The notes below the pieces were generated by a model that had not been told where the DNA came from, made no database searches, and worked only from the letters and a program-made list of their open reading frames with translations. Made by a program: the position numbers and the translations under genes. 44,155 bases of DNA from Campylobacteraceae bacterium (GTDB taxonomy: Bacteria; Campylobacterota; Campylobacteria; Campylobacterales; Campylobacteraceae). This document shows positions 1 through 42,524 of this stretch, one piece after another (position 1 is the stretch's first letter; the number at the start of each line of letters is the position of its first letter). The stretch spans positions 1 through 44,155 of the forward strand of contig JAISGD010000020.1 in assembly GCA_031263195.1 (NCBI GenBank), written 5' to 3'.

Positions 1-717
1 CTTGGTCAAATAACAGTAAGAGACACTGAAAACTCAGATGAATTAGACAAACTAAATAGAGATGTCAACAATATGAACAATCTTTTATACAGCGGCGGTA
101 TAGGATTGGATGTGGAGAGCGTTACTAGAGATCCCATAAGTAGAGCGATACAAACTTCTGTAACAAGTATTTTTAATATACAAGACGCTTTCCAAACCAT
201 TAGCGAAACAGATAATATTCTCAATATGGCAAGTAGCGCTTTGGATGTTGCGGATGGGGTACTTAAAATTAGAGACGGCATAGGCACTATTAATACGGTT
301 CTAAATCCACCTAAAAAAGATGATGCAGACAAAGCGGCACAAACATCCTTAGAAAATGAAGATAACCCAAAACAAGAGCCCACAGAAAACACAAATAATA
401 ACAAGCAAAATGAAAATACATTTGCTGACACAGTAGAAACAACATTAATTAGTCTTATAAAAATTAATAGCGGAATTAAAAGCATAGATACTTCGGTCAA
501 TAATTTGATTAATATGGATATACAGAGCTTATATTCAAAAGATAATATTAATAGTATCAATTCTTTTATTAGTGGAATGCAAAAGATAGATGAAGGGTTA
601 AGTAAAAACAGTTATGTTGAAAAATTCTTAGATGATAATCATTTACATTACTATTTTGATAAAGTATATGATGTTAATAAAGGTTTAAATAATGCCAATC
701 ATCTTAATCCATTTTAG
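1..717 (+). CDS. C-terminal end of a filamentous hemagglutinin / CdiA-like exoprotein (5' partial)
   Basis: The reading frame is open from base 1, so this is the last 238 codons of a longer gene whose start lies outside the window. The first residues (GQITVRD, then LDKLNRDVNN) match the recurring pattern of the hemagglutinin-repeat/pretoxin region of CdiA and FhaB-type two-partner-secretion exoproteins (T-I-x-V-R-D ... LNRD). The remainder is rich in Asn, Asp, Ser and Ile, with a hydrophilic Lys/Asn/Glu stretch around residues 100-135. I see no VENN motif and no toxin domain I can name, so a contact-dependent inhibition role is inference only. The next gene overlaps the 3' end by 26 bases, so a downstream immunity or accessory role for the lipoproteins is possible but unproven. 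Confidence 0.7.
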   Translation, partial: LGQITVRDTENSDELDKLNRDVNNMNNLLYSGGIGLDVESVTRDPISRAIQTSVTSIFNIQDAFQTISETDNILNMASSALDVADGVLKIRDGIGTINTVLNPPKKDDADKAAQTSLENEDNPKQEPTENTNNNKQNENTFADTVETTLISLIKINSGIKSIDTSVNNLINMDIQSLYSKDNINSINSFISGMQKIDEGLSKNSYVEKFLDDNHLHYYFDKVYDVNKGLNNANHLNPF

Positions 718-1594
718 AAAATATAAAGTAATATATACTCATTTAATTTTATTCATGGCACTATTGTTTGGACTGTCAAGCTGTGCATCTATAGGGTATG
801 TAAAGATTGAAAATGCCATCAGCGACAATAGAAGCATCCTAATTTTTCCTCTTTCTGAATCAAATATAGAGTGGCAAATTATAGATAACTCTTCCAAACC
901 TTTTACTTTTTCAACATTTAAAGCGGGAGATGTTTCTGTAACATCGGTAAAGCCGGGAGTATATTATATAAAAAGTGTTACTTTCAAAGATACCAAAAAA
1001 AGGAATTTGCGATATGAAGAGACATATAACTCAAGTATCGGTAACATAGAAATAGATAAAACGCCGGAAAAAGAACGTATAAGTTTTGAAAGAGAAAGAA
1101 AGGGTAAGTTTTCAACATGGATTGAAAAAGGAGAAGAAGTAAATAGTATAACAAGTTATTACATAATGAAGTATACTTTTGATAAAGATAAACCTATTAT
1201 AGGTACCATAACAGTTATGCCCAATGAAGTTATTTTAATGCCGTTAGTTGAAATTAATTTCATAATGAGGATAAATGCTTGTCAGTATAGGGGCGATAGC
1301 GGTTCATTTCTTGATTTATTTACAATAGCAGAAATCATAAAGAGCGATGACCGTTTTGATGATTTTAATCATCTGTATTGGAGTTGTCCTGCTGAACAGA
1401 TGTATATCACCACAAAAACAATTTCCATAGAAACTCTGCTCTCAAAAGTGGATAAAAAATATTTTCCAGATGGAGTATTAGATAGAGTAATATTTAGAGA
1501 TTTTGAGTTTGGGAATATTTCTAAAAATATAGAAAAAGAGGAAGAGCTAAATGGTATAAAAACTATAAAATATAAAGTGGAAACATTTGAATAA
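692..1594 (+). CDS. Putative lipoprotein, paralogue of the next gene
   Basis: A 300-residue protein with a positively charged N-terminus (HFRKYK), a hydrophobic stretch and a lipobox LSSC (Cys near residue 31), so probably a lipidated envelope protein. A shorter start at the ATG at 755 would leave almost no charged n-region, so the start at 692 is preferred. The body is predicted beta-rich, with motifs shared with the following gene: GVYYIKSV, EETYNSSIGNI, GTITVMPNE and a C-terminal DFEFGNISKN. It overlaps the end of the hemagglutinin-like gene, which suggests co-expression. No known family is recognised. It could be an immunity or accessory lipoprotein of the upstream exoprotein, but no sequence motif proves this. 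Confidence 0.75.
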   Translation: MPIILIHFRKYKVIYTHLILFMALLFGLSSCASIGYVKIENAISDNRSILIFPLSESNIEWQIIDNSSKPFTFSTFKAGDVSVTSVKPGVYYIKSVTFKDTKKRNLRYEETYNSSIGNIEIDKTPEKERISFERERKGKFSTWIEKGEEVNSITSYYIMKYTFDKDKPIIGTITVMPNEVILMPLVEINFIMRINACQYRGDSGSFLDLFTIAEIIKSDDRFDDFNHLYWSCPAEQMYITTKTISIETLLSKVDKKYFPDGVLDRVIFRDFEFGNISKNIEKEEELNGIKTIKYKVETFE

Positions 1595-1604
1595 ATAAGA
1601 GAAT

Positions 1605-2560
1605 ATGAAAAATATTATACATAATATGTTGCTATGTTTTGCTATTTTAGTCATTGCAGGCTGCGCGTCTAAAACTAATATCGAAGCCAATCTAAATGAT
1701 GGCAAAAGTGTAGTGATTTTACCTGACTATGACACAAATGGATTAAGAATATATTGGGCAAAAGCTGGAAGTAACGCCACATACGACTTTTCGTTTAATT
1801 ATGGTACTTCAAGATTGGGTATTTATTTTGCTTTACCTGTAGAGACAGGAGTATATTATATAAAAAGTATTTCTTTGAAAAGCACAAGTGGATTTAATCC
1901 GATATATACAGAGGAATACAATTCAATATTTGGAAACATTATTCTTGAGAAAACACCTGAAGAAGTTATTAGAACGGTTGTAGATAATACTAAAAAAAAT
2001 CTATTTCAAAAGAGGTTGTAGAACCTATCGCAAGCTATTATAAATTTAACTATCAATTTGATAATGATACTTTGTTCGGCACGATAACTATTAATCCAAA
2101 TGAGATAGCACTTATTCCTGCTGTATGGATAGATGTGACGCTAAAACAAAACTCTTGTAAACATTTTGATAACAAGCAAGATAGTTTTGTTCGTAAGATA
2201 GTGAGAGATTATGATAATCCGCTTACTATGGTATTTAGCGTAGCAGGAAAGTCAAATGGAATTTATACTTGGTATTGGGATTGTCCGATAAAGGAGTTTG
2301 TTATTAATGCGAAGTCAATTTCATTAAATGAATTTACAGATTTTGCAAAAACTCACAAAATGATGGAACCAATAGGGCGTAATTTTATATATATGTTAAT
2401 GCCACAAGCGTATAGGGCATTTCCGAAACATATACTTGATAAAATCATAGTAAAAGATTTCGAATTTGGCAATATGTTTAAAAACGCCAAAAAGATAGAA
2501 AGTATTGAAGATAGTGTTGAAAGATATATTATTGACGGAAATACAAACCAACAAGAATAA
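1605..2560 (+). pseudogene. Second paralogous lipoprotein gene, split by a frameshift at an A8 run
   Basis: The first part (1605-2021) encodes 138 residues with a clear lipoprotein signal (MKNIIHNMLLCFAIL, lipobox IAGC) and shares GVYYIKSISL and YNSIFGNI with the upstream paralogue. The frame stops at 2019-2021. The matching downstream half continues in the next frame (from about 2000 to 2560), with SYYKFNYQFDND, FGTITINPNE and DFEFGNMFKN aligning to the second half of the paralogue. The switch falls at eight consecutive A residues (1992-1999); a ninth A, or a -1 ribosomal or transcriptional slip, would restore one protein of about 318 residues. It may be a true pseudogene, a phase-variable gene or a sequencing error in a homopolymer. 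Confidence 0.75.
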
Positions 2561-2563
2561 AAT

Positions 2564-2795
2564 ATGCGATACAAAACATTAAATCTGTTTTTTATTCTAT
2601 TTTATTTTGGAACTTTAGCTAACGCTAACTTCCGAATAAACAGTGCAAATTATCAGGAAAAACAGGTAATTCTCTCTTAAATAACAGAAGGTACGGTTAA
2701 TATAGGAGGCAATACAAATATAAAAGGTTCTTCAATAGCTGATCGGATACTTTGATGAAAACAATAACTTTGTAGATAACGCCAATTATATCTAA
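2564..2795 (+). pseudogene. Remnant of a hemagglutinin-repeat protein
   Basis: An ATG at 2564 opens 38 codons that look like a signal peptide (hydrophobic core LNLFFILFYFG, cleavage site ANA) and stops at 2678-2680. In the same frame after the stop the sequence reads VNIGGNTNIKGSSIAD, the typical repeat of filamentous hemagglutinin/CdiA proteins, ending at 2753-2755. One frame over, FDENNNFVDNANY follows up to a stop at 2793-2795. The string of stops and the frameshift show a decayed copy of a gene family whose longer member ends at 717. It is too short to be functional. Confidence 0.5.
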
Positions 2796-3378: not shown

Positions 3379-4695
3379 TTGGGGGCAGAATTAGCCAATA
3401 ACGTATTTAAGCTTTTGAAAGCAGAGATACCGATTAACGAATACAATAGATATATCAAACAACTCTCTTACAATGAAAAAGAGTCAAAAGAGAATTTAAG
3501 CGTATTTACAGTACCCAACAAACTTGTATTAAATTGGATAAAGACAAGATACGGCTTGAAGCTCTCACAATTATTTGAGGCTAAAACAGATACAAAACAT
3601 TCGATCATTTTTACTATCAAAGAGAGTCATTCCGATAAGGCATCATTAAATGCCCAAAAAATTGAAAATAAGAAAAACAGTATCCTAAATCCATCGTATA
3701 ATTTCGATAACTTCATAGTCGGCAACTCTAATCGTTTTGCTTTCAGTACTGCAAAAACCGTAGCAAATAAACCGGGAATCGTGTATAATCCGGTATTTAT
3801 ATACGGTCCTACAGGACTTGGTAAAACACATTTGATACACGCTATAGGAAATTATGTTCAAAGCAGAAATAAAATCGCCATTTATGCCACTTGCGAACAA
3901 TTTGTCAATGACTATATTCATCATCTTAAAAATGATACAATGGATAAATTTAGAGAAAAATACAGAAGCTGCGATATTTTAATGATAGACGACGTACAAT
4001 TTTTTCAAGGAAAAGTCGGTACTCAAGAGGTATTTTTTCATACGTTCAACGAACTATACACAATGAAAAAACAGATAGTTTTAACTTCCGACAAACCACC
4101 AAAAATCATAGACGGTATTGAAGAAAGACTTAAAACACGCTTTGAATGGGGAGTCATAGCGGATATATCAATTCCTGAACTTGAAACAAAAATAGCGATT
4201 ATCAAAAAAAAGTGTGAGTTGGATAAAGTTGATTTAACAGATAGCACAATAAATTATATAGCTTCAAATATGGGTGATAATATCAGAGAAATCGAGAGTG
4301 CTATCATCAATATAAATGCCTATGCAAATCTTATGCGTCAAGAGATAACACTTGAATTTGCTAAAAACGTTATCAAAGATCAGATTAGAGAAAAACACGA
4401 AAATATCAACATAGATGACATTATTTATATTGTAGCTAAAAATGAAAATATAAAACCAAGCGAGATAAAATCAAAAAATCGCTCACAAAAGATAGTAGAG
4501 GCAAGACGTATAGTTATCTATTTAGCACGTGTCTTAACACCAAACTCTATGCCTTCAATCGCATCATTTTTTGGTATGAAAGACCACACAGCAGTATCTC
4601 ACAATATGAAAAAAATAGTAGAATTGATCCAAAGCAGTGAGAGTTTCAGACTAAAAGTAGATGAATTAAAAAACAAAATTTTAAAAAAAGTATAG
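3379..4695 (+). CDS. dnaA: Chromosomal replication initiator DnaA
   Basis: DnaA binds DnaA boxes at the origin, melts the DNA and loads the helicase. The 438-residue protein contains Walker A GPTGLGKT (residues 143-150), Walker B LMIDD with Asp204/Asp205, and the C-terminal DNA-binding signature DHTAVSH (402-408). The N-terminal domain (about 1-80) matches the domain I family pattern, and a short linker follows. The start is a TTG at 3379, preceded by AAAGGA with good spacing; the nearby ATG at 3372 is out of frame. The gene lies between ruvC and dnaN, with DnaA-box-like sequences immediately downstream. Confidence 0.97.
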   Translation: MGAELANNVFKLLKAEIPINEYNRYIKQLSYNEKESKENLSVFTVPNKLVLNWIKTRYGLKLSQLFEAKTDTKHSIIFTIKESHSDKASLNAQKIENKKNSILNPSYNFDNFIVGNSNRFAFSTAKTVANKPGIVYNPVFIYGPTGLGKTHLIHAIGNYVQSRNKIAIYATCEQFVNDYIHHLKNDTMDKFREKYRSCDILMIDDVQFFQGKVGTQEVFFHTFNELYTMKKQIVLTSDKPPKIIDGIEERLKTRFEWGVIADISIPELETKIAIIKKKCELDKVDLTDSTINYIASNMGDNIREIESAIININAYANLMRQEITLEFAKNVIKDQIREKHENINIDDIIYIVAKNENIKPSEIKSKNRSQKIVEARRIVIYLARVLTPNSMPSIASFFGMKDHTAVSHNMKKIVELIQSSESFRLKVDELKNKILKKV

Positions 4696-8249: not shown

Positions 8250-9668
8250 ATGTTGTATTCCGAATTTAAAGAGAGGCAAAACAGATTTGCCGTAGCGCTG
8301 AAGATAGGGTTACCTTTTTTAGCCCTTATAGTTGTTTATATAAGTGTTTTCGCGCTATTTGATATAAAGTCCAATAATTTTGTTTTACTTCTTTTATTTA
8401 TTTTAGTCTATATCTATTATATTTTTTATATGATATATAAGGGTTTTAACGAATCCTTGATAGATTACACGCAAGCTTTTAATGCTCATACTATAACAAA
8501 AGAGATACAAAAAACTATTAAAAAAAGAAATAAAGAGGGATTTATCGCAATGATAAATATCCTGAATATCTCTTATATTGAGGAACAATATGGTGTCGCG
8601 GCACGGAACCAAATCCTAAAACATCTTGTTGAGAGATTAAATCTCTACCTCTCCTCATTCGGGCTTAAAAAGATACCGATAGGCCGCTATCAAAGCGGCA
8701 GTTTTTTGCTGATTTTTAATGATATCGGCAATAAAAAACATTTAGATCATCTGCTTATAGGTTTTTGCAAGGAGACAAAATCAAAAGGTATTTTTAAAAT
8801 CGAGATAAAGTTAAAATCCGCCTCCGTAAGCAAGAGTTATGATGAGAACGCAAAAAATATTATCTCCAAACTCATCAATATTTCTCAAGATGTAGAGAAT
8901 GATTTTCAAGATATTTTAAAGCCTAATGAATTTGACCGTCTTGTAAGAAACGCTGTGCAAACGCATAATTTCATTTTTACCTACCAAGGCGTTTTTGATT
9001 ATAATAATACGGAAAAAGGCGCGGATATTTTCACTGTTAATACAAAACTTTTGATAGACCGTTACGGCGCACTTCCAAGATCGCAGATAATTACTTCCGT
9101 TAAGAAAAACGGTTATGAGGTGAAGTTCGACCAATTTGTTTTGGAGATATTATTTAACGAGATAAAACTGTTACTTACAAGTTACCCAAAATTTCATTTT
9201 ATAGTAAAAATTTCGCCCGTTTCTTTTAGAAACAGAAGCTTTTTAATCTTTATCAAAGAGCTTTTAAAAAATGAAGAGATTAACGCGCATAGCGTATCTT
9301 TCGCATTTGAAGAGAAAAAGGTTTATGATGATTTTGAGAGATTTAAAGAGATTATCAATGAATATAGAGAACTTGGATTTGGGATAGTTTTAGACAGGTT
9401 TGGTTCAAATAATGCTGGATTTGAATATTTGAAACACGGCATAAAATTTGATATTGTGAGTTTTGATTTGGAGTTTGTGAAAAATATCAATTCTGAAAAT
9501 TATCGATCGATGTTTAAAACTCTTATCTCTTTTGCGCAAAAGCTTGGTCTTAAAACAGTTGTGAAATTTATAGACAAAGAGAGTATTTTACATATTTTAA
9601 GCGATGCTCGTCCCGATTTTGTGCAAGGATTTTTATTTGATAAGCCACGCGCTTTGAAAGATTTTTAA
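8250..9668 (+). CDS. Membrane protein with degenerate GGDEF and EAL domains
   Basis: The 472-residue protein begins with two predicted membrane helices (about residues 15-37 and 43-63), followed by a GGDEF-like domain (about 85-215) and an EAL-like domain (about 230-470). The GGDEF signature is replaced by GRYQSGSF. In the EAL half the usual first motif is replaced by TYQGVFD without EAL, the DDFGTG motif reads DRFGSNNAG, and the C-terminal QGF.F.KP pattern remains (VQGFLFDKPRA). Catalysis of c-di-GMP synthesis or breakdown is therefore unlikely; a binding or scaffold role is possible. The start abuts the gyrB stop codon, implying co-expression, and queF follows. Confidence 0.8.
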   Translation: MLYSEFKERQNRFAVALKIGLPFLALIVVYISVFALFDIKSNNFVLLLLFILVYIYYIFYMIYKGFNESLIDYTQAFNAHTITKEIQKTIKKRNKEGFIAMINILNISYIEEQYGVAARNQILKHLVERLNLYLSSFGLKKIPIGRYQSGSFLLIFNDIGNKKHLDHLLIGFCKETKSKGIFKIEIKLKSASVSKSYDENAKNIISKLINISQDVENDFQDILKPNEFDRLVRNAVQTHNFIFTYQGVFDYNNTEKGADIFTVNTKLLIDRYGALPRSQIITSVKKNGYEVKFDQFVLEILFNEIKLLLTSYPKFHFIVKISPVSFRNRSFLIFIKELLKNEEINAHSVSFAFEEKKVYDDFERFKEIINEYRELGFGIVLDRFGSNNAGFEYLKHGIKFDIVSFDLEFVKNINSENYRSMFKTLISFAQKLGLKTVVKFIDKESILHILSDARPDFVQGFLFDKPRALKDF

Positions 9669-9676
9669 GGAGAATG

Positions 9677-10066
9677 ATGAAATACGGAGAAAAGATAATC
9701 AAAGAATTTGAGATAGATAAAGATTTGGAGGTTTGGGAAAACAGACATAAAAAAAATTATATTGTAAAAATTACACTTCCGGAATTTATATGTCTTTGCC
9801 CAAGGAGCGGATATCCTGATTTTGCAACAATTTATCTGGAATATATCCCGAACGATTGGGTGGTTGAATTAAAAGCTTTGAAACTCTATATCAATAGTTT
9901 TATGTCAAAAAATATAAGTCATGAAACGAGTGCAAATGAGATTTATGACACTTTATGGCAGAAATTGAAACCAAAATGGCTGAAAATTACAGTTGATTTT
10001 AATCCTCGCGGTAATGTTCACACTGTAATCGAAATAGATTCGCAAAAAATAGAAAAACTTCCATGA
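9677..10066 (+). CDS. queF: NADPH-dependent 7-cyano-7-deazaguanine reductase QueF
   Basis: QueF reduces preQ0 to preQ1 in the queuosine tRNA modification pathway. The 129-residue form matches the short (YkvM-type) subfamily. The active-site segment CPRSGYPDFATIYLEYIP carries the catalytic Cys41 and Asp48, and the QueF motif ELKALKLYINSF follows. AAGGAG at 9667-9672 favours the second of two tandem ATGs (9677) over the one at 9674. The end overlaps the next gene by four bases (ATGA), so the two are translationally coupled. Confidence 0.93.
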   Translation: MKYGEKIIKEFEIDKDLEVWENRHKKNYIVKITLPEFICLCPRSGYPDFATIYLEYIPNDWVVELKALKLYINSFMSKNISHETSANEIYDTLWQKLKPKWLKITVDFNPRGNVHTVIEIDSQKIEKLP

Positions 10067-11265
10067 TAAGCGCGCAACTTATAGATAAGTTTTTTTCTGC
10101 AGCTTCTATAGAAAGATGGAATGATTATCCAAGAATGGTAGAATTGTCTGAGCTTGATAAACAAGCGCATAAATTCATAATCGCTTTCTTTTTGTCTAAA
10201 GAGGAAAGCGGTATCGATATGCCGTTTCTCATTGAAGCTGGTGTTTTTGAGTTTTTAAGAAGGATTGTTGTAACGGATATACGTCCTGATGTTTTTCACC
10301 AAGCGCTTAAAAAAAAGACAAAAGAGATAAATATATGGGTTTTGGAAAAATTAAAAAACTCTCTGGAAAAGATAGAAAACGGAGAATTTTATAAGCGATT
10401 TGAACAGTATTTAAGCGATGAAAGCTTGCATGCTAAAGAGCGTTTTATCCTCAAAGCCGCTTCATATCTTGCAACAAGATGGGAATTTTCCATTATTTAT
10501 CAAACAAGTAAATTTTTAAATGATATAGAGGGTGTGAAAAATTCCGTAGAAGAAGAGATGGAAGAGTATCTGTCTTTAAACGGCGTAAGACAGATAGCTT
10601 TCAATAAAAAATTATCGCGCATTGTAGATTTAAGTGGTAGACTTCGTTTTCAGAAACGATGGGCTCAGACACAGCGTATTCCAAAAACATCTGTTTTGGG
10701 GCATATGTTGATAGTAGCCATTTTAGGTTACTTTTATTCGCTTAAGATTAAAGCTTGTCCGAAGAGAGTTGAAAACAACTTTTTCGGCGCGCTTTTTCAT
10801 GATTTGCCCGAGGCTCTAACAAGAGATATTATAAGTCCCGTAAAATATTCCGTAAGCGGGCTTGATGAGATAATAAGCGAATTCGAAATTCAAAAAATAG
10901 AAAAAGAGATAATGCCGTATATCCCGTACCGTATACAAAACGAATTTTTATATCTGCTTGGCATTAAAGAGGGCAAAAAAGACGAGTTTCAAAATAGAAT
11001 CTTTCAAGAAGGCAAACTTGTAACAGTAAACAATCTATTCGATTATAATGAAAACAGTTTTAGCGCCATAGACGGTCAAATCTTAAAAAAATGCGATAGA
11101 TTGGCAGCGTTTATTGAAGCTGTAATATCGATATCTTACGGTATTAAATCAAGAGAATTGATAAACGGTAAAGAGAGTACAAAAGAGAAGTTAAAAGATA
11201 ACATAAATTCGAATGTTGATTTTTATAAATTAGCCGACGAGATAGAAGAGTTTTATTTTAATTAA
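10063..11265 (+). CDS. HD-domain phosphohydrolase (YfbR/HDDC3-like core)
   Basis: A 400-residue protein. The C-terminal half carries an HD fold: His214 in VLGHMLIV, His246-Asp247 in ALFHDLPEALTRDIISPVKY, and a later KKCDRLAAFIEA motif. The HD.PEALT.D...PVKY pattern is characteristic of the YfbR family of 5'-deoxynucleotidases and relatives. The N-terminal 190 residues are alpha-helical and unassigned. Many Campylobacterota encode a similar HD protein. It overlaps queF by ATGA, so it belongs to the same message. The substrate is not known; nucleotide hydrolysis is inferred from the family. Confidence 0.8.
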   Translation: MISAQLIDKFFSAASIERWNDYPRMVELSELDKQAHKFIIAFFLSKEESGIDMPFLIEAGVFEFLRRIVVTDIRPDVFHQALKKKTKEINIWVLEKLKNSLEKIENGEFYKRFEQYLSDESLHAKERFILKAASYLATRWEFSIIYQTSKFLNDIEGVKNSVEEEMEEYLSLNGVRQIAFNKKLSRIVDLSGRLRFQKRWAQTQRIPKTSVLGHMLIVAILGYFYSLKIKACPKRVENNFFGALFHDLPEALTRDIISPVKYSVSGLDEIISEFEIQKIEKEIMPYIPYRIQNEFLYLLGIKEGKKDEFQNRIFQEGKLVTVNNLFDYNENSFSAIDGQILKKCDRLAAFIEAVISISYGIKSRELINGKESTKEKLKDNINSNVDFYKLADEIEEFYFN

Positions 11266-12851: not shown

Positions 12852-14717
12852 TTATCGTTTTTTTCTCATAACTATATAAACATGTAAAGCGTCAATAGCT
12901 GCCGGCGTTATACCGCTGATTTCACTTGCGGCAAACAGCGTGGGGGGGTTGAAGCGTTTCAGTTTTTCAGCAGCTTCGTTTCCAAGCCCGCTTACTTTTG
13001 TGAAATCAATATCTGTCGGGATTTTTACTTCTAACATTTTGCGCATTGAAGCTATCTGCTCTTTTTGTTTTTGTATGTAGTTTTTATATTTAGCCAGAAT
13101 CAATATCTGCTCTTTTGCCTCATTATCAAAACTTGACAAAGAAGGCAACAGTCTCTCCAATTTTTCAGCGGTAAAACTTTTTCTTGCCGCTATCTTTTGA
13201 TAAGTCGTTTTATCATTTATGCCCTCCTCTTCCAAAGAGGCTAAAAATGTTACATTTTCTTTCGAAGGAGTTAAGAAATTTTTTTCCAAAAGTTCCAATC
13301 CTTCGCGCACATGATCTATTTTGCGGCGCATTTTGGCACATATGTATTCGTCTATCAAGCCAAATTTATACCCATATTCCATAAGTCTTATATCAGCGTT
13401 ATCTTCACGCAATAAAAGCCTGTATTCGGCACGCGAGGTGAACATTCTGTAAGGCTCTTTCGTGCCTTTTGTTACGAGGTCGTCTATCATAACGCCTATA
13501 TACGCTTCATCGCGGCGCAAAATAAACGGCTCTTTCTCTTCGTATGACAAAACGGCGTTTATTCCGGCTATTAAACCTTGCGCCGCCGCTTCCTCATATC
13601 CTGTTGTGCCGTTTATTTGTCCGGCACAATAAAGTCCTTTTATTTTTTTTGTCTCAAGCGTGTGCTTAAGTTCTATAGGCTCTACATAGTCATACTCTAT
13701 CGCATATCCGTAACGTACGATTTTAGCCTCTTCAAGTCCCGGTATTGTTTGTAAAAAACTTAACTGTACATCCGGCGGCAGCGAAGTTGAAAGTCCGTTC
13801 AGGTAATACTCGCTTGCCTCTTTTGTCTGCGGTTCCACAAAAATATGATGACGCTCTTTATCTGCAAAACGGTTTATCTTATCCTCAATACTTGGGCAAT
13901 ATCTTGGACCAATACCCTCTATTTGTCCCGTAAAAAGTGGTGCTCTGTGGAAATTATTGCGTATTGTTTCATGTGTTATATTATTTGTATATGTTATAAA
14001 ACACGGAAGCTGAAAAGGGTTAAAATTTGTTTTATCTGTTCTGAAGCTCATGGGCGAAGGATTTTCGTCTCCACCTTGAATTTGCATTTTATTAAAGTCT
14101 ATACTTTTAGCGTCTATTCTCGGGCAAGTTCCTGTTTTCAGTCTTCCCAAAGTAAGCCCCAAATTTTTTAAAGAATCCGATAGCGCATTTGAAGCGAATT
14201 CCCCTGTTCTGCCTGCGCTTTGACGAAATTCCCCTATATGTATGAGTCCTTTTAAAAAAGTGCCGGTTGTTATAATAACTTTTTTGGCGTAATATTTATT
14301 TTGAATATGCGTCAAAACGCCGCTTATTTCGCCGTTTTGTGTGAGTATTTCTTCCGCAATCTCTTGAGTTACATCTAAGTTTTTGGTGTTTAATATAATA
14401 TTTCGCATAAAAATACGGTATCTGTCCATATCTATTTGTGCTCTTGTGCCTCTTACTGCCGGACCTTTGGACTCATTTAAAATACGAAACTGTATTCCGG
14501 CGGCATCTGTTGCAAGTGCCATTTGTCCGCCTAAAGCGTCAATCTCTTTGGTCAGGTGCCCTTTGCCAAGTCCGCCTATCGCAGGGTTGCAGCTGGCAGC
14601 TCCTATCTGCTCGACCAGTATAGTAAGAAGCAGCGTTTTTTTACCCATTCTGGCGCATGCCAAAGAGGCTTCAATACCAGCATGTCCGCCGCCTACAACG
14701 ATAATATCATATTTCAT
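12852..14717 (-). CDS. mnmG: tRNA uridine-5-carboxymethylaminomethyl modification enzyme MnmG (GidA)
   Basis: With MnmE, MnmG installs the cmnm5 group on U34 of tRNAs, using FAD and NADH. The 621-residue product has the N-terminal FAD-binding motif [17 protein letters not shown], the family signature [14 protein letters not shown], the block [11 protein letters not shown] and the [14 protein letters not shown] segment. The C-terminal helical domain is complete. Length is normal. A minus-strand TACAAT (14753-14758) upstream is a candidate -10 box. It converges with the preceding small gene. Confidence 0.96.
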
Positions 14718-24248: not shown

Positions 24249-25850
24249 ATGAAAAATATGTCAAAATCGATTTTTGTCCCCTTTGTCGTTATTTTTTTGA
24301 TTGGTTGCGGCGGGGGTGGCGGAAGCAGCGGATATGAAGCACATAGTGGTGGTAGTACGGTAACTCTTGCCTCAGTTTGCAGTGGTGGACTACCTTGCGG
24401 CAATAACGGCAACAGTTATATGGGAGCAGGTATTGGTGTTTGGAATTATAAAAACAGTGGTACATCCAGTGTCAATCTCAATGTTTCACTCTCTAATGTA
24501 GCAAATAGAGATATCACCATAGTCTTTACAAATGAAGGTGATACAAATATCAACAATTTTCCGCATATTGAAGTGTACCAGTCTTTGAAAAATGAGATAT
24601 ACGCTTATTCACAGACGGAAGATACATTTAATTATATTCCAGAGTCTATAAGATATTTTGACCCAGAAGAGTTTATACGACAAAATAAGCCTTATCCAAA
24701 TCAATATTCACAAAAATTACTGCTTAAGACATGGAATAAAAACGATAAAAACACATGGCGCATTCATAGAGATATAAGTTCAAATACAAATCGTATCGCT
24801 ACGCTTAGAAAGCAGATGAGTATTTTGGGGCGCACTATCAATCTATGGGTTGAGGATAGCGAATTTAAAAGCGGCAAGATTACCGAGTCGGAGATAAATA
24901 CTATCTCTTCCCATATTGATACCATATATTATAACGTGATAACTATAGCGGGAGAACCATGGGGAACTCATAGCAGGTCAGGATATATATCCGGTGACCA
25001 ACCTTTAGATATAGTATTCGTCAACTTTGATAATAACGGACAACCATTTGGTACGATAGGGTATTTTTGGGCAGGCAATAACCTTAATAAAAATATTAAC
25101 CAAAATTCCAACGAAGCCATAGCCGTCTTTATAGATACTGAGACGCTTTACGGGGGTTCGATATTGTATGGATTAAGTACAATAGCGCATGAATTGACCC
25201 ATGCGGTCAATTTCTATCAGCGTGTTATTCTTATAAATGATGAATTTGACACATTTTTAGACGAGATGACGGCTATAATGATGGAAGACGTATTGGCTAG
25301 AAAGATAGATGCTGTTTTTAATGATGCTAAAGAGAGATATATGGAATGGCTCAGGATCCCCCTTTATAAGTGTGATTTTGCAAAGTGGGAAGGGTGCGGT
25401 AATGCTGTCTATAGTTATAATGTCGCCGGTAGTTTTGGGGCGTTTTTGCTGCGTCAGTACGGTATAGATAATTTTTACAAAACAGTGTTCAAAACCCGAA
25501 GTGATATCAGCGCCAGAACAAAATCCATAAGCATTTTAGATAAAGCCATAAAGACATATGACAGCGGAGGTTTGACAAAAGCCCTACGTAATTGGGGAGC
25601 GAGTATCGCGATGCTGTCGACCTCTTTACCGCTTAATGGTTTTGGGTATCCGTATCGCAACGATAACGGACTCGAGTTGGAAGAGTTTGACGGGAGCGTT
25701 TACAAACAATATCGTTCATTGCCTCTATACTCTCCGGCGACACTCTCGGCACATGCTCATTTTCCGTTTTTGAGAAGACCTGCAAGCTACACATATGAAG
25801 AGGTTTTTGTTGTGCCAAAAAATGCATCGGTAACTGTAATTGTCCAGTGA
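24249..25850 (+). CDS. Secreted lipoprotein zinc metalloprotease, M30-like (copy 1)
   Basis: A 533-residue protein with a lipoprotein signal (hydrophobic IFVPFVVIFLIG, lipobox LIGC, Cys20) followed by a glycine-rich linker. The zinc site HELTH (His314, Glu315, His318) lies in STIAHELTHAVNFYQR, and Glu339 in LDEM is a likely third ligand. This pattern of HEXXH, NFYQ and a later E resembles the M30 (hyicolysin) family. The N-terminal domain (about 30-110) is Asn- and Ser-rich and probably beta-sandwich. It is therefore a surface or secreted protease. It is a tandem paralogue of the gene at 26200-27747; the gap between them carries no gene I recognise. Confidence 0.75.
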   Translation: MKNMSKSIFVPFVVIFLIGCGGGGGSSGYEAHSGGSTVTLASVCSGGLPCGNNGNSYMGAGIGVWNYKNSGTSSVNLNVSLSNVANRDITIVFTNEGDTNINNFPHIEVYQSLKNEIYAYSQTEDTFNYIPESIRYFDPEEFIRQNKPYPNQYSQKLLLKTWNKNDKNTWRIHRDISSNTNRIATLRKQMSILGRTINLWVEDSEFKSGKITESEINTISSHIDTIYYNVITIAGEPWGTHSRSGYISGDQPLDIVFVNFDNNGQPFGTIGYFWAGNNLNKNINQNSNEAIAVFIDTETLYGGSILYGLSTIAHELTHAVNFYQRVILINDEFDTFLDEMTAIMMEDVLARKIDAVFNDAKERYMEWLRIPLYKCDFAKWEGCGNAVYSYNVAGSFGAFLLRQYGIDNFYKTVFKTRSDISARTKSISILDKAIKTYDSGGLTKALRNWGASIAMLSTSLPLNGFGYPYRNDNGLELEEFDGSVYKQYRSLPLYSPATLSAHAHFPFLRRPASYTYEEVFVVPKNASVTVIVQ

Positions 25851-26199
25851 ATTTCATATAGCGTTTATTAGTCTGTTTGGAAAACAAGACTAAACTTTAT
25901 ATTGGTGTATTAAATTATATTCCGGTAGTGCAAAAGATTTTTAATTACCCGATTGCAATCCCCGCAACTCCAAATAAAGAGTTGAGAAACTATTAACAAT
26001 AACATATAATTGCCCTCAATTTATAAATATTGGCGGTGCTATGAGCGGGGAACACGGCTTAATTCAAGTCTTGAGTTTTATCTTTCAAAACAAAATATAT
26101 AAAGTATTTATAAACATATTTTAAGTATTTCCATTATTATGCGGTATGAATTTATCAGGAGCGATATTTCGCAAGGGGGTGGTATTAAAGGAATTGAAA
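25851..26199. other. Gap between the two protease genes
   Basis: AT-rich sequence of about 350 bases with no RNA gene, operon-scale ORF or terminator that I can name. An ATG frame from 26146 simply extends the second protease upstream and is less likely than the start chosen at 26200. Confidence 0.3.
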
Positions 26200-27747
26200 A
26201 TGAGAAAGATTAAAGCGATTTTGATTTTACTGCCTGCTCTTTTTCTGGCAGGCTGTTGTGTTGATGAATATGGTAATGTAGTCATCGGTAAATGTGAGAT
26301 CAATACAACGACAAGCGCAACCTTTCAGTGCAACGGCGCTTCCTGCGGTAGCAGTCTCAGTTCGTATAGCGGAACAAATTCTAATGTCTGGACTTATAAA
26401 AACAACGGAAACAGTAATGTAAATCTCAATGTCTCTATGTCCAATATATCAAACAAAGATATAACTATTGTCTATACAAACGAAGGAAGCAGTTATGTTA
26501 CTATACCTCCTGTCTCTATCGATAAAACTCTGAAAAATGAGATATACCCATATAATATCGGATACGAAGAAGAGACTTATGAGTTCAGAGAACCCGATTT
26601 TATAAGAGACTTTGAGCCTGCAGAACTGATAGAAGAGACCGATGACTTAAAGCTAAATCAAACCCCTTCATACGCAGTATGGTACGAAGGAAATAAACGT
26701 AATTGGAATGTATACTATGGTTCATTAGTTCGTGCAACAACTCTCAGAAAACAGTTAACGGTTAACGGACGCACTGTCAACCTATGGGTTGAAGACAGTG
26801 AATATGGCAGTGGAAAGATTGATGCTGCAAAAATCAATGATATATCCTCTTATATCAGTACTATATATACTGATGTAGTCAAGGTAGCCGGAGAACCTTG
26901 GGGAACACACAGAGCCTCAAATCTCATAGCGAGCGGCAATCAACCTTTGGATATAGTGTTTGTTGATTTAGGTGCACGATCTCCATTTATAGAAACAATG
27001 GCAGGATATTTTTGGAGTCTCAATAATTATAAAAAATCAACATATAGCGACTCCAATGAAGCGGTAGCTATATTTATAAATACGTGTATGGATAACGGAT
27101 ATACACTATCCACAATAGCTCACGAACTGACCCACGCCATAAACTTCTATCAGCGTTTTGTCCTTATAGGTAGTGGCAATGGGTATAAATCATTTTTAGA
27201 AGAGATGACGGCCGTAATGATGCAAGATGTAATAAGCAGCAGGATATCATATAATAGAGTTAGTAGTAGATACGTAAGTTGGATTAATGCACCGCTTTAT
27301 CATTGTGATCTTAGTTCCGGCGAGTGTGATGTCTATGCTATGGGAGGCAGTTTCGGAGCATTTTTGATGCGTCAATATGGTATAGATTTCTATAAGACAC
27401 TGCTTAGAACAAGCGGTTCATCTACGGATGCGATAGACAAAGCCATCAAAATATATGACAGTGGAGGTTTAGCAAAAGCTCTGCGTCATTGGGGAGCCAG
27501 TATTGCTATGTTTTCATCTTCACAGAGACCTAAAGGTTTTGGGTATCCTGCCCGTAATGATAATGGTTTTAATTTGGAAGCATTTGACGGCAATACGTAT
27601 AGATCATCTCGTAAGCTGCCTGTATCGTCACCTGCGACATTAGCTCCCAACGCTCATTTTCCGTTTTTAAGAAAAACGACAAACAATATATACAATGAAT
27701 CGTTTGTTGTGCCGAAAGGAGTTGGAATATCTATTGTGGTGAAGTGA
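26200..27747 (+). CDS. Secreted lipoprotein zinc metalloprotease, M30-like (copy 2)
   Basis: 515 residues from the ATG giving MRKIKAIL, with an AAAGGAATTG RBS; an ATG at 26146 adds 18 unlikely residues. The signal has LPALFLAGC with Cys19. HELTH (His308, Glu309, His312) and Glu335 form the zinc site, as in copy 1. Strong identity with copy 1 runs through the length, including LWVEDSE, GEPWGTH, QPLDIVFV, AGSFGAF/GGSFGAF, the RQYGID block and the ANAHFPFLR-like end. The two genes form a tandem duplication and may differ in substrate. A shared terminator with the convergent nusA follows. Confidence 0.75.
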   Translation: MRKIKAILILLPALFLAGCCVDEYGNVVIGKCEINTTTSATFQCNGASCGSSLSSYSGTNSNVWTYKNNGNSNVNLNVSMSNISNKDITIVYTNEGSSYVTIPPVSIDKTLKNEIYPYNIGYEEETYEFREPDFIRDFEPAELIEETDDLKLNQTPSYAVWYEGNKRNWNVYYGSLVRATTLRKQLTVNGRTVNLWVEDSEYGSGKIDAAKINDISSYISTIYTDVVKVAGEPWGTHRASNLIASGNQPLDIVFVDLGARSPFIETMAGYFWSLNNYKKSTYSDSNEAVAIFINTCMDNGYTLSTIAHELTHAINFYQRFVLIGSGNGYKSFLEEMTAVMMQDVISSRISYNRVSSRYVSWINAPLYHCDLSSGECDVYAMGGSFGAFLMRQYGIDFYKTLLRTSGSSTDAIDKAIKIYDSGGLAKALRHWGASIAMFSSSQRPKGFGYPARNDNGFNLEAFDGNTYRSSRKLPVSSPATLAPNAHFPFLRKTTNNIYNESFVVPKGVGISIVVK

Positions 27748-39603: not shown

Positions 39604-40326
39604 ATGAAATTTATAAGATTTGGTGTAGAGGGCATTTTAAATTCATTCAGGGTTCCTTTTTTTAGAACTTATCATAAAACATTTTTTGCGCCGCCAAAAA
39701 GTACAATTATTGGTATGTTGTGCAATATATCTTTAAAATCTCAAAAAGAATTTTTTGAGATTTTAAATAAAGAATCTATTGATGTTTCTGTTGTTATAAA
39801 CAGCATAAGCGGTAAAGCAAAAGAGTTATGGAGTTATAAAACTTTAAAAAAGGTGAATATGGGTAAGAGTGTTGTTAGGAGAGACAAGCTTTTTTTACCA
39901 ATATATACTATTTATCTACGGATACAAGATGACGCACTTTTTAAAAATACTTTAGAGTTTTTAACAAATCCAAAAAATATTCCATCATTGGGTCTTGATG
40001 ATGAACTGATAACAATCAAGAATATTACGGCCTTAAACAGTGAAATATTTGTGCAAAATAACACAAATAGAGTTAATTCAGTTTTTCTTGATAAAAACAT
40101 AAAATATAAAGTTCATATGGCCAAATATGACAAATTTTTAAAACTACCAACGCCAAACTTGGTTCCAACAAAATTTACAGCATTTGACTCTGAAGGAAAT
40201 AGAATTTCAAAAGAAGCCAAAGAGGAGTTTTTGCAAGTTGAATATATAAACTGCGAAGTGGAATTTTTGGAAAATATTGAAAGTTTTAGAGATATGGAAT
40301 TAGGCAATAGGGTAATTTTTTATTAA
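39604..40326 (+). CDS. cas5: CRISPR Cascade protein Cas5
   Basis: A 240-residue RAMP. The N-terminal pattern MKFIRFGVEGILNSFRVPFFRTYHKTFFAPPKSTIIGMLCNI matches Cas5, which caps the 5' end of the crRNA in Cascade. It begins two bases after the cas7 stop and its stop overlaps cas3 by one base (TAATG), so the operon is tightly coupled. Confidence 0.85.
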   Translation: MKFIRFGVEGILNSFRVPFFRTYHKTFFAPPKSTIIGMLCNISLKSQKEFFEILNKESIDVSVVINSISGKAKELWSYKTLKKVNMGKSVVRRDKLFLPIYTIYLRIQDDALFKNTLEFLTNPKNIPSLGLDDELITIKNITALNSEIFVQNNTNRVNSVFLDKNIKYKVHMAKYDKFLKLPTPNLVPTKFTAFDSEGNRISKEAKEEFLQVEYINCEVEFLENIESFRDMELGNRVIFY

Positions 40327-42524
40327 TGAAAATTTGGGCAAAGCGACTTGGCGAACAATACCAAACTATAGAAGGACATACAGATTGTGTTATAGAGGAG
40401 TCTTTAAAACAGATAGATGAATACACCATTCATAAAGTTTCAAAACTGACAAAATGGAATAAGGAAAAAATAAAAGATTTAATTTTTTTTTGCGCTTATT
40501 TTCATGATATTGGTAAAGCTACGAAAGAATTTCAAGAAACGATTAAAAATGGTTTAAAATCATATCATCCTATGTATTCTGCCAGCATTTTGGAGAACAT
40601 TGAAAAATTTGAATATAAAAATGAAGATATTTATATAAATCTATTGTTGATAGTTTCTTTAACTCATCATACTTTGATGCCATATACGGCAAATTCTTCA
40701 AAATTTACATTTTTGGATGAAGCAAAGGATTTTTTTGAAAATTATAGAAGCAAATATGAGCTATATATGCAAAAGACATGTAAGTATAATTTTGAATTTA
40801 AATTTTCAGAAAATATCAAGCTTGAGATTGAATGTATTGAGGATAGCCTAAAGTATATTGAAAACAATAATATATTAAGGACGCTTTATTCGTATATATC
40901 CGGTATTTTAAATATTGCCGATTGGTTGGCGAGTGCAAAATTTGCCAAGAATGCAACAAATATTACTTTTAATGTATTGCCCTCAAAGGAAGCTTTTATC
41001 AGTAAGCTATCTTTTGATAAATTAAGAAGTTTTCAGGAGAATTTATCCGAATGTGCAGGAAGCGTACTAGTTGAGATTCCAACAGGAGAAGGCAAAACAG
41101 AAGGCTCATTGCTTTGGGCAATTAACAACTTAAAAAATAAAAATACCAAAATAATATATACGCTCCCAACTCAAACGACGTCAAATAAACTATATGAGAG
41201 AATACAAAGTTTTTTTGATAAAGAAATGTGTGGTTTAATTCACTCCTCTGCAAAAGTTTATCTTGAAAAAGAGTACGAAAAAGATAATGGCTTTATTGAT
41301 GAAAACTTTAGAAGTGATTTTCTATTTAACAAAAGCTTTAATAAGCCAGTTACCGTTTCTACGATAGATTCACTATTAAAATATTTTATTAATATAGGAA
41401 GGTTTAATATTGCAATAAAAAATTTCCTTAACTCTGTAATTATAGTAGATGAAGTTCATTCTTATGATTTCAAATTGATGGGATTTTTAAAAAGATTTTT
41501 AGAACTTTGCAATAAGGAATATGAGGTAAAAGTATGTCTAATGAGTGCTTCAATTCCAAACAAAACCAAGCAATTGCTCGGAATCAAATCCTATCAAACA
41601 GTGCATCAAAACGACTTATTTAAGAAAAAAGCAAATCAAATTACCAAAAAAGAGTGTGTGATGGATGATGATTTTAATTTGCTGGAAGAAAAAATTTGTC
41701 TTAAGAAAAACACTTTAATTATAAGAAATACAGTCAGAAGCGCAACACTAACATATAAAAGGCTTAAAGAAAATCTTGATCCTGAAAAATTTGAAATTAT
41801 TCTGTACCATGCTGCTTTTAAGAAAATAGACAAAAATCAAAAAGAAAAATTGATTTTTGAAAAACTTGAAAAATCCAAAACAAATAAACCTTTGATTTTA
41901 ATAGCTACTCAAATTGTAGAAATTTCTTTGGATATAGATTTTGATATTTTATTTACTGATAATGCGCCGATTGATGCCTTAATTCAAAGATTTGGAAGGA
42001 TAAATCGTAAAAAATCTTTAAATAAAAAAGGGGAAGTATTTATATATAAATATGATAAAGCTTTTCCATATAAAAATACTTATATTTTAGAATTAACATT
42101 TGAAACTATTAAAGATGGATATTTTGAATTGAGTGAATATGTCAAATGGCTAAATATTGTATATGACAAGTTGTTTGTAGATGATATAAGTATAAAAAAT
42201 CGTATTTCCGGAATTTTTGATGACGCTTATGAAAAACATGATAAGAATTTGAAAAAATTGAATGCTATCGAACAATCGGAAGATAATTATGATTTGAGAG
42301 ATATTAATGTTCCTAGAGAGGATTTTTTGCTATATGATGATTTTATGAATGAAACAATTAATCCAAAAAACTACTACGAATACACGATATCTTTGCCGTC
42401 ATGTTATGCGAATAAATATTTATATATTCCTCAGGAAAAGCTAAAATATCGCATATTGAATTTAAAATATTCGTTCGAAAGCGGAATCGAGTTACCTATC
42501 GAAGACGAGGATGAAATTTGGTAA
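40326..42524 (+). CDS. cas3: CRISPR helicase-nuclease Cas3 (HD plus DExH)
   Basis: Cas3 unwinds and degrades DNA bound by Cascade. The 732-residue protein has an N-terminal HD nuclease domain (His18, His60-Asp61 in YFHDIGK, His81, His114-His115) followed by an SF2 helicase: Walker A PTGEGKT with Lys257, DEVH (375-378), motif III SAS in LMSASIP, and motif VI QRFGRINR (554-561). Both catalytic domains are intact. It overlaps cas5 and cas4. Confidence 0.93.
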   Translation: MKIWAKRLGEQYQTIEGHTDCVIEESLKQIDEYTIHKVSKLTKWNKEKIKDLIFFCAYFHDIGKATKEFQETIKNGLKSYHPMYSASILENIEKFEYKNEDIYINLLLIVSLTHHTLMPYTANSSKFTFLDEAKDFFENYRSKYELYMQKTCKYNFEFKFSENIKLEIECIEDSLKYIENNNILRTLYSYISGILNIADWLASAKFAKNATNITFNVLPSKEAFISKLSFDKLRSFQENLSECAGSVLVEIPTGEGKTEGSLLWAINNLKNKNTKIIYTLPTQTTSNKLYERIQSFFDKEMCGLIHSSAKVYLEKEYEKDNGFIDENFRSDFLFNKSFNKPVTVSTIDSLLKYFINIGRFNIAIKNFLNSVIIVDEVHSYDFKLMGFLKRFLELCNKEYEVKVCLMSASIPNKTKQLLGIKSYQTVHQNDLFKKKANQITKKECVMDDDFNLLEEKICLKKNTLIIRNTVRSATLTYKRLKENLDPEKFEIILYHAAFKKIDKNQKEKLIFEKLEKSKTNKPLILIATQIVEISLDIDFDILFTDNAPIDALIQRFGRINRKKSLNKKGEVFIYKYDKAFPYKNTYILELTFETIKDGYFELSEYVKWLNIVYDKLFVDDISIKNRISGIFDDAYEKHDKNLKKLNAIEQSEDNYDLRDINVPREDFLLYDDFMNETINPKNYYEYTISLPSCYANKYLYIPQEKLKYRILNLKYSFESGIELPIEDEDEIW

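Follow-up and report, generated by a model that had tools for sequence, protein, structure and literature searches.

A lipoprotein gene changes frame at a run of eight adenines

Does a lipoprotein gene whose frame changes at a homopolymer carry a switch, or is it simply broken? The question is raised by a gene in the window, a 44,155-nt stretch of DNA from a Campylobacteraceae bacterium. On its plus strand, an open reading frame at 1605-2021 (138 aa, with a lipobox-like IAGC/AS) and an open frame at 1994-2560 constitute two halves of one lipoprotein-like gene lying in different frames. The first start codon listed for the downstream half is a TTG at 2072, which gives an ORF of 162 aa (2072-2560) in a frame that is open from 1994 and meets no stop beyond the break. 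Since the last stop of the downstream frame lies at 1991-1993 and the upstream frame ends with the stop at 2019-2021, the frame must change within 1994-2018, the only 25 nt over which both frames are open. Six of the eight As of a run at 1992-1999 (A8) fall inside this interval, which contains no further long run. These ORFs and stops confirm the initial annotation, which had placed the switch between the two halves at A8. A run of A8 was found in 1.0% of random 28-nt coding stretches of the window (200,000 draws, in a test done once the break was known), so the break and the A8 probably do not coincide by chance. Slippage of some kind is the likely reason for a break at this place.

The intact paralogue that had been noticed next door (692-1594, plus strand, 300 aa, lipobox-like LSSC/AS) also stood up, both halves aligning to it at 29 to 37% identity. 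The upstream half matches its residues 13-127 (35%, E 1e-14) and the downstream half matches the rest (29% or 31% according to the query, E 1e-14 and 4e-19); identities in a MAFFT alignment are 35% and 37%, respectively. A structure prediction for the paralogue made from the window's own three proteins reached a mean pLDDT of only 32 and was not used. The named genomes searched contained no confirmed relatives of the paralogue, and the viral contigs searched contained none of the downstream half.

The split gene lies behind an FhaB-like gene

Positions 1-717 of the plus strand code for the C-terminal part of an FhaB-like TpsA protein, the frame of which runs off the contig start. Its conserved stretch (...LNRD..MNNLLYSGGIGLDVES) ends in GLDVES and is followed by a variable tail. 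By blastx it matches an FhaB-like ORF of locus L021 (54% over 236 aa) and, over shorter lengths, sequences in L024, L026, L095 and L096, the last of which carries the FhaB N-terminal domain TIGR01901. The intact lipoprotein gene begins before the FhaB gene has ended, the two sharing 26 nt. The order in the window is thus FhaB C-terminus, overlapping lipoprotein, split lipoprotein and, at 2618-2780 (plus strand), a decayed FhaB fragment interrupted by an in-frame stop and by a change of frame, which matches FhaB of L024 (blastx, 65% over 43 aa, E 2e-11) and has a second-frame piece matched in L096.

The TpsA C-terminus is the only part of a two-partner secretion system in the window. The genome (1.79 Mb in 32 contigs, 99.7% complete, and by our inference probably a MAG) has a single TpsB match near the end of contig C17, which plausibly adjoins the window (contig C26). 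The order FhaB, lipoprotein, ShlB/FhaC transporter (PF03865, POTRA_2) is seen in L024, and the TPS domain PF05860 was found in L025. In L029 the lipoprotein gene precedes what remains of a transporter gene (tpsB), whereas L021 has a patatin gene on the opposite strand between lipoprotein and transporter region. The lipoprotein gene follows an FhaB C-terminus in the window, L021, L024 and L026; in L024 it precedes tpsB, and in L029 the tpsB remnant. No FhaB gene was seen on the fetched stretches of L019, L022, L023 and L027, and in L020 the contig ends just upstream of the lipoprotein copy.

A CdiA/FhaB-like neighbour had been proposed for this locus. The blastx matches, TIGR01901 in L096 and the gene order of L024 bear out its FhaB side, but not a CdiA-type toxin tail: no toxin domain was found in the FhaB tails scanned with Pfam (window, L021 and L024) or NCBIfam (window, L024, L095 and L096). 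For the lipoprotein itself, an immunity or accessory role had been suggested. Its position gives partial support to an accessory role, whereas the four loci compared lend no clear support to immunity. In these four loci only, the window and G005 share their FhaB tail (54%) and have the closest N-terminal halves (43%, against 31-35% for the others), and the C-terminal halves are out of step with the tails (G005 and G008, 51%).

A search of named genomes with the DnaA-like protein returned four relatives (83-92% identity), all MAGs of Campylobacteraceae bacteria. The Campylobacter setting assumed initially is therefore supported at most to the level of the family. In blastn, none of the four matches the part of the window that precedes the ruvC-like gene, the matches beginning at 2786-2815, on stretches reaching from 0.5 kb (L051) to 5.4 kb (L052) beyond the ruvC-like match; the module thus looks like an addition at this site. 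The FhaB-like genes of G005 (L021, about 4580-4615, a stretch that includes an A5) and G013 (L026, about 2725) are also frame-broken. Together with the FhaB debris at 2618-2780, they suggest that the locus turns over.

Two further features were seen in the window. Neighbouring ORFs of 533 aa at 24249-25850 and 26146-27747 each match Peptidase M30, and a Cas3-like gene with HD and helicase domains at 40326-42524 is matched at E 1e-20 or better in one of 13 other genomes of the genus (G006, 30% identity).

The lipoprotein family is found in one genus

Fifteen copies of the lipoprotein occur in 11 of 14 genomes of the genus. Nine are intact, one is cut by a contig end, two have a single frame change (window and G013) and three have several stops (G001, G002 and G004). 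A search of 100 relatives with the intact copy of the window matched ten, all of the same genus. A profile search of 150 genomes of the family matched 12, comprising the 11 genomes of the genus and G028, which belongs to another genus and matched weakly (E 2.4e-4). The G028 match was set aside, being a 150-aa ORF that is hydrophobic towards the C-terminus and in which no lipobox was seen. Nothing exceeded the Pfam cut-off for the intact copy and both halves, nor the NCBIfam cut-off for the lipoprotein copies scanned; PHROG returned weak matches only (best E 0.0024), and no relative was found among solved structures (best E 0.61). By eye, eight of the nine intact copies have a lipobox-like site with no Asp after the Cys, the exception being a G007 copy (L027, 6508-7236). 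The nearest named relatives are Campylobacteraceae MAGs.

FhaB-free copies in L019 (8057-8875), L022 (4095-5015) and L028 (3065-3742) occupy similar neighbourhoods, each beside a short lipoprotein-like ORF; L019 and L028 also have genes that we take to be rplU/obgE-like. These copies are intact in G000 and G006 and decayed in G002. The contig of another FhaB-free copy (L023) carries a CRISPR-like array at 8827-10568, the short ORFs of which repeat FQYNVCVGST.

Among known systems, the family would work most like BcpO of the Burkholderia bcpAIOB loci, an analogy of position and lipobox with no claim of homology. BcpO is a predicted lipoprotein without Asp after the Cys, is encoded between the TpsA and TpsB genes as is the lipoprotein between FhaB and ShlB in L024, and is reported to be needed for full activity of the Burkholderia two-partner CDI system (PMC3415462). 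BcpO alleles are described as heterogeneous, with 57-172 aa (PMC3415462), whereas the family studied here has about 240-330 aa. Unlike the bcpAIOB loci, those studied here yielded no identified bcpI-like immunity gene or toxin tail.

The closest orthologue is broken at another A run

The only close orthologue of the split gene is found in G013 (70% and 74% identity over the two halves), and the two group together with support of 100/100 in a tree of 12 C-terminal halves. The G013 gene is also frame-broken, but there the change falls within 11 overlapping nt at an A7, upstream of where the window's gene breaks, and goes the other way; Gs interrupt the sequence corresponding to the window's A8. 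The two genes, broken at different A runs and in different directions, thus lost their frames independently, and neither shares its tract with the other.

Between these orthologues, dN/dS is 0.305 for the upstream half (bootstrap 0.16-0.57) and 0.275 for the downstream half (0.18-0.42). An intact orthologous lipoprotein pair gives 0.297, and the window's intact copy compared with G005 gives 0.407 with synonymous sites near saturation; values are 0.118 and 0.147 for tpsB and 0.048 for the DnaA-like gene. The halves have thus been alike in constraint for most of their history, and either the breaks are recent or the product is still made. Between the window genome and G013, pS is 0.38-0.41 for the split gene, far below the 0.776 of a ribAB-like gene, the one core gene compared, which suggests horizontal exchange.

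Long A runs are common in intact genes

To place the A8 against its background, runs of at least A8 were counted in 33 chosen long ORFs of the window, the split gene being left out: 18 were observed compared to 15.9 expected from synonymous reshuffling. Runs of this length also occur in window ORFs of normal length, including the DnaA-like one, and two further stretches of the same genome contributed four more in unbroken ORFs. Across 40 window ORFs there are 19 such runs, and three of them, the split gene's included, come within 45 nt of a stop. The downstream ORFs that we take to encode DnaA-like, DnaN-like and GyrB-like proteins keep their length compared to the four named relatives. The 13 matches to the GyrB-like gene, from 12 of 14 genomes, contain neither a stop nor a split (one match is cut by a contig end), G013 and G010 having no match. 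A second GyrB-like match in G005 (contig C122, 68%, besides one of 88%) may reflect a mixed bin or a paralogue.

The hinge between the two halves is lysine-rich (11.9% compared to 8.4% elsewhere). In the nine intact copies it holds 11 runs of at least A6, compared to 6.6 expected from the copies' own codons (reached by 1 of 300 shuffles) and 5.9 from the window's codons (0 of 300 shuffles reach 11), for a threshold picked after viewing the data and copies that are related. Runs of A7 or A8 are not enriched there, two being observed and about two expected; A8 occurs in the hinge of two of the nine intact copies (G008 and one from G007). The simplest reading is that the hinge is a hotspot of ordinary slippage.

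MutL (TIGR00585) was above cut-off in none of the 14 genomes of the genus, compared to 11 of 14 named controls. This absence rests on one model and on genomes that are 55-99.7% complete; weak partial matches occur in four of the 14, G000 included.

Separately, a C7 on the coding strand at 12942-12948 lies near the 3' end of the mnmG/gidA gene (12852-14717, minus strand). It reaches the G/C cut-off of 7 used by PhasomeIt, and the C-terminal domain of the gene product is still matched.

Recent inactivation probably explains the frame break

In our view the split gene is probably a spare, horizontally exchanged accessory lipoprotein gene recently inactivated by slippage at its A run. This explanation builds on the observed break and its place, the paralogue, the linkage to FhaB, the orthologue broken elsewhere, the similar constraint on both halves and the lack of MutL above cut-off. 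The split copy would be the second, spare accessory lipoprotein of an FhaB-like two-partner-secretion locus, presumably exchanged horizontally within the genus if the one core gene compared is representative, and its frame would have been lost, apparently recently, by polymerase slippage at the A run in a lineage with no detectable MutL. The intact upstream paralogue, which at its start overlaps the FhaB gene, probably fulfils the function, and loss of the split copy would therefore be tolerated. By analogy with BcpO, that function may be to aid secretion or display of the FhaB protein.

Blochmannia offers a parallel: otherwise preserved genes are reported there to have a single change of frame within an A run, and related genomes carry independently broken ytfM genes, each at a place of its own, much like the split gene and its G013 orthologue (PMC3017870). 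However, those breaks occur in a reduced symbiont genome and also touch core replication genes, whereas here the gene is accessory and adjoins an intact paralogue.

Several observations pull against inactivation. The downstream half, with no sign of relaxation and no further stops, is also what continued expression would leave; both known orthologues are broken at A runs, as they might be if the gene tolerates or uses slippage; and the enrichment of runs of at least A6 in the hinge of intact copies, two of nine having an A8, counts against it as well.

The alternative that survives best, although unlikely, is that the gene is leaky, transcriptional slippage on the A8 giving a minority of full-length mRNA, which would let the gene bear the frame change and keep selection acting on the full protein. 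Similar constraint on the two halves agrees with this, but a recent break accounts for it equally well, and in the orthologue the run at the break is shorter (A7) and the frame changes in the other direction. A run of eight As is also short for strong transcriptional slippage. There is nonetheless precedent in E. coli, where insertions during transcription are reported to rise exponentially with run length up to 9 nt and homopolymer insertions to occur only in A or T (PMC5574713), and frameshifted A-run genes of insect symbionts reportedly give full-length product (PMC3017870).

Reversible phase variation, in which replication slippage at the A run would switch the lipoprotein on and off, we regard as distinctly unlikely. 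The lack of MutL above cut-off, the link to a surface protein gene and the A8 in the hinge of two of nine intact copies are in its favour. Short A runs also vary in C. jejuni pgp1 (A8 to A7) and flgR/flgS, with loss of frame as here and in a lineage said to lack mismatch repair (PMC5530802, PMC3928116); that variation was observed among clones, whereas here there is one sequence per genome. Against it, A8 is shorter than the 10 As set as the A/T cut-off for Campylobacter in PhasomeIt (PMC6321876), the one orthologue available (G013) lacks the tract, equal runs lie in other ORFs, the DnaA-like one among them, and the hinge of intact copies has no excess of A7 or A8 runs. The dedicated phase-variation tract proposed initially thus finds no support. 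A broader version, which we hold to be similarly doubtful, is that the lysine-rich hinge acts across the genus as a slippage region that switches or dials down FhaB-linked lipoproteins, with a different run at work in each lineage and some full-length product leaking through by transcriptional slippage. If true, the hinge would be a contingency region set by composition and not by one conserved tract.

We judge an assembly or sequencing error at the homopolymer to be improbable. The genome is in 32 contigs, probably a MAG, the G013 bin is 62% complete with two frame breaks within 1 kb, and two of the 18 other runs of at least A8 in window ORFs lie within 45 nt of an ORF stop, all of which would suit an error. 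Yet these 18 runs and the four elsewhere leave their ORFs unbroken, and the GyrB-like gene is free of stops or splits wherever it was matched. Moreover, errors at A8 are rare in Illumina reads, a point that matters if the reads are of that kind, as the k119_n contig names of the four relatives suggest; such names are used for termite-gut MAGs assembled from Illumina reads. Termite-gut Illumina metagenomes including Campylobacterales MAGs have been described (PMC9137090), but no link from them to the relatives' records was found.

Finally, a programmed -1 ribosomal frameshift was rejected as scarcely credible: the A AAA AAT heptamer noted initially does lie in register, with the downstream half in the -1 frame, but the heptamer is absent from the G013 orthologue, which is broken in the other direction, no stimulatory structure is predicted at 2000-2100 (z -0.11, 84 of 200 shuffles folding as well), and nine family members are open without any shift.

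The lipoprotein family, which has no Pfam or NCBIfam name, is found in one genus and is tied to FhaB in several genomes, may be a counterpart to BcpO in function. Where a genome is rich in A, a frame broken at A8 says little about phase variation; to tell ordinary breakage from a switch, it helps to look at whether the tract is conserved, how many such runs the background holds and what orthologues show.
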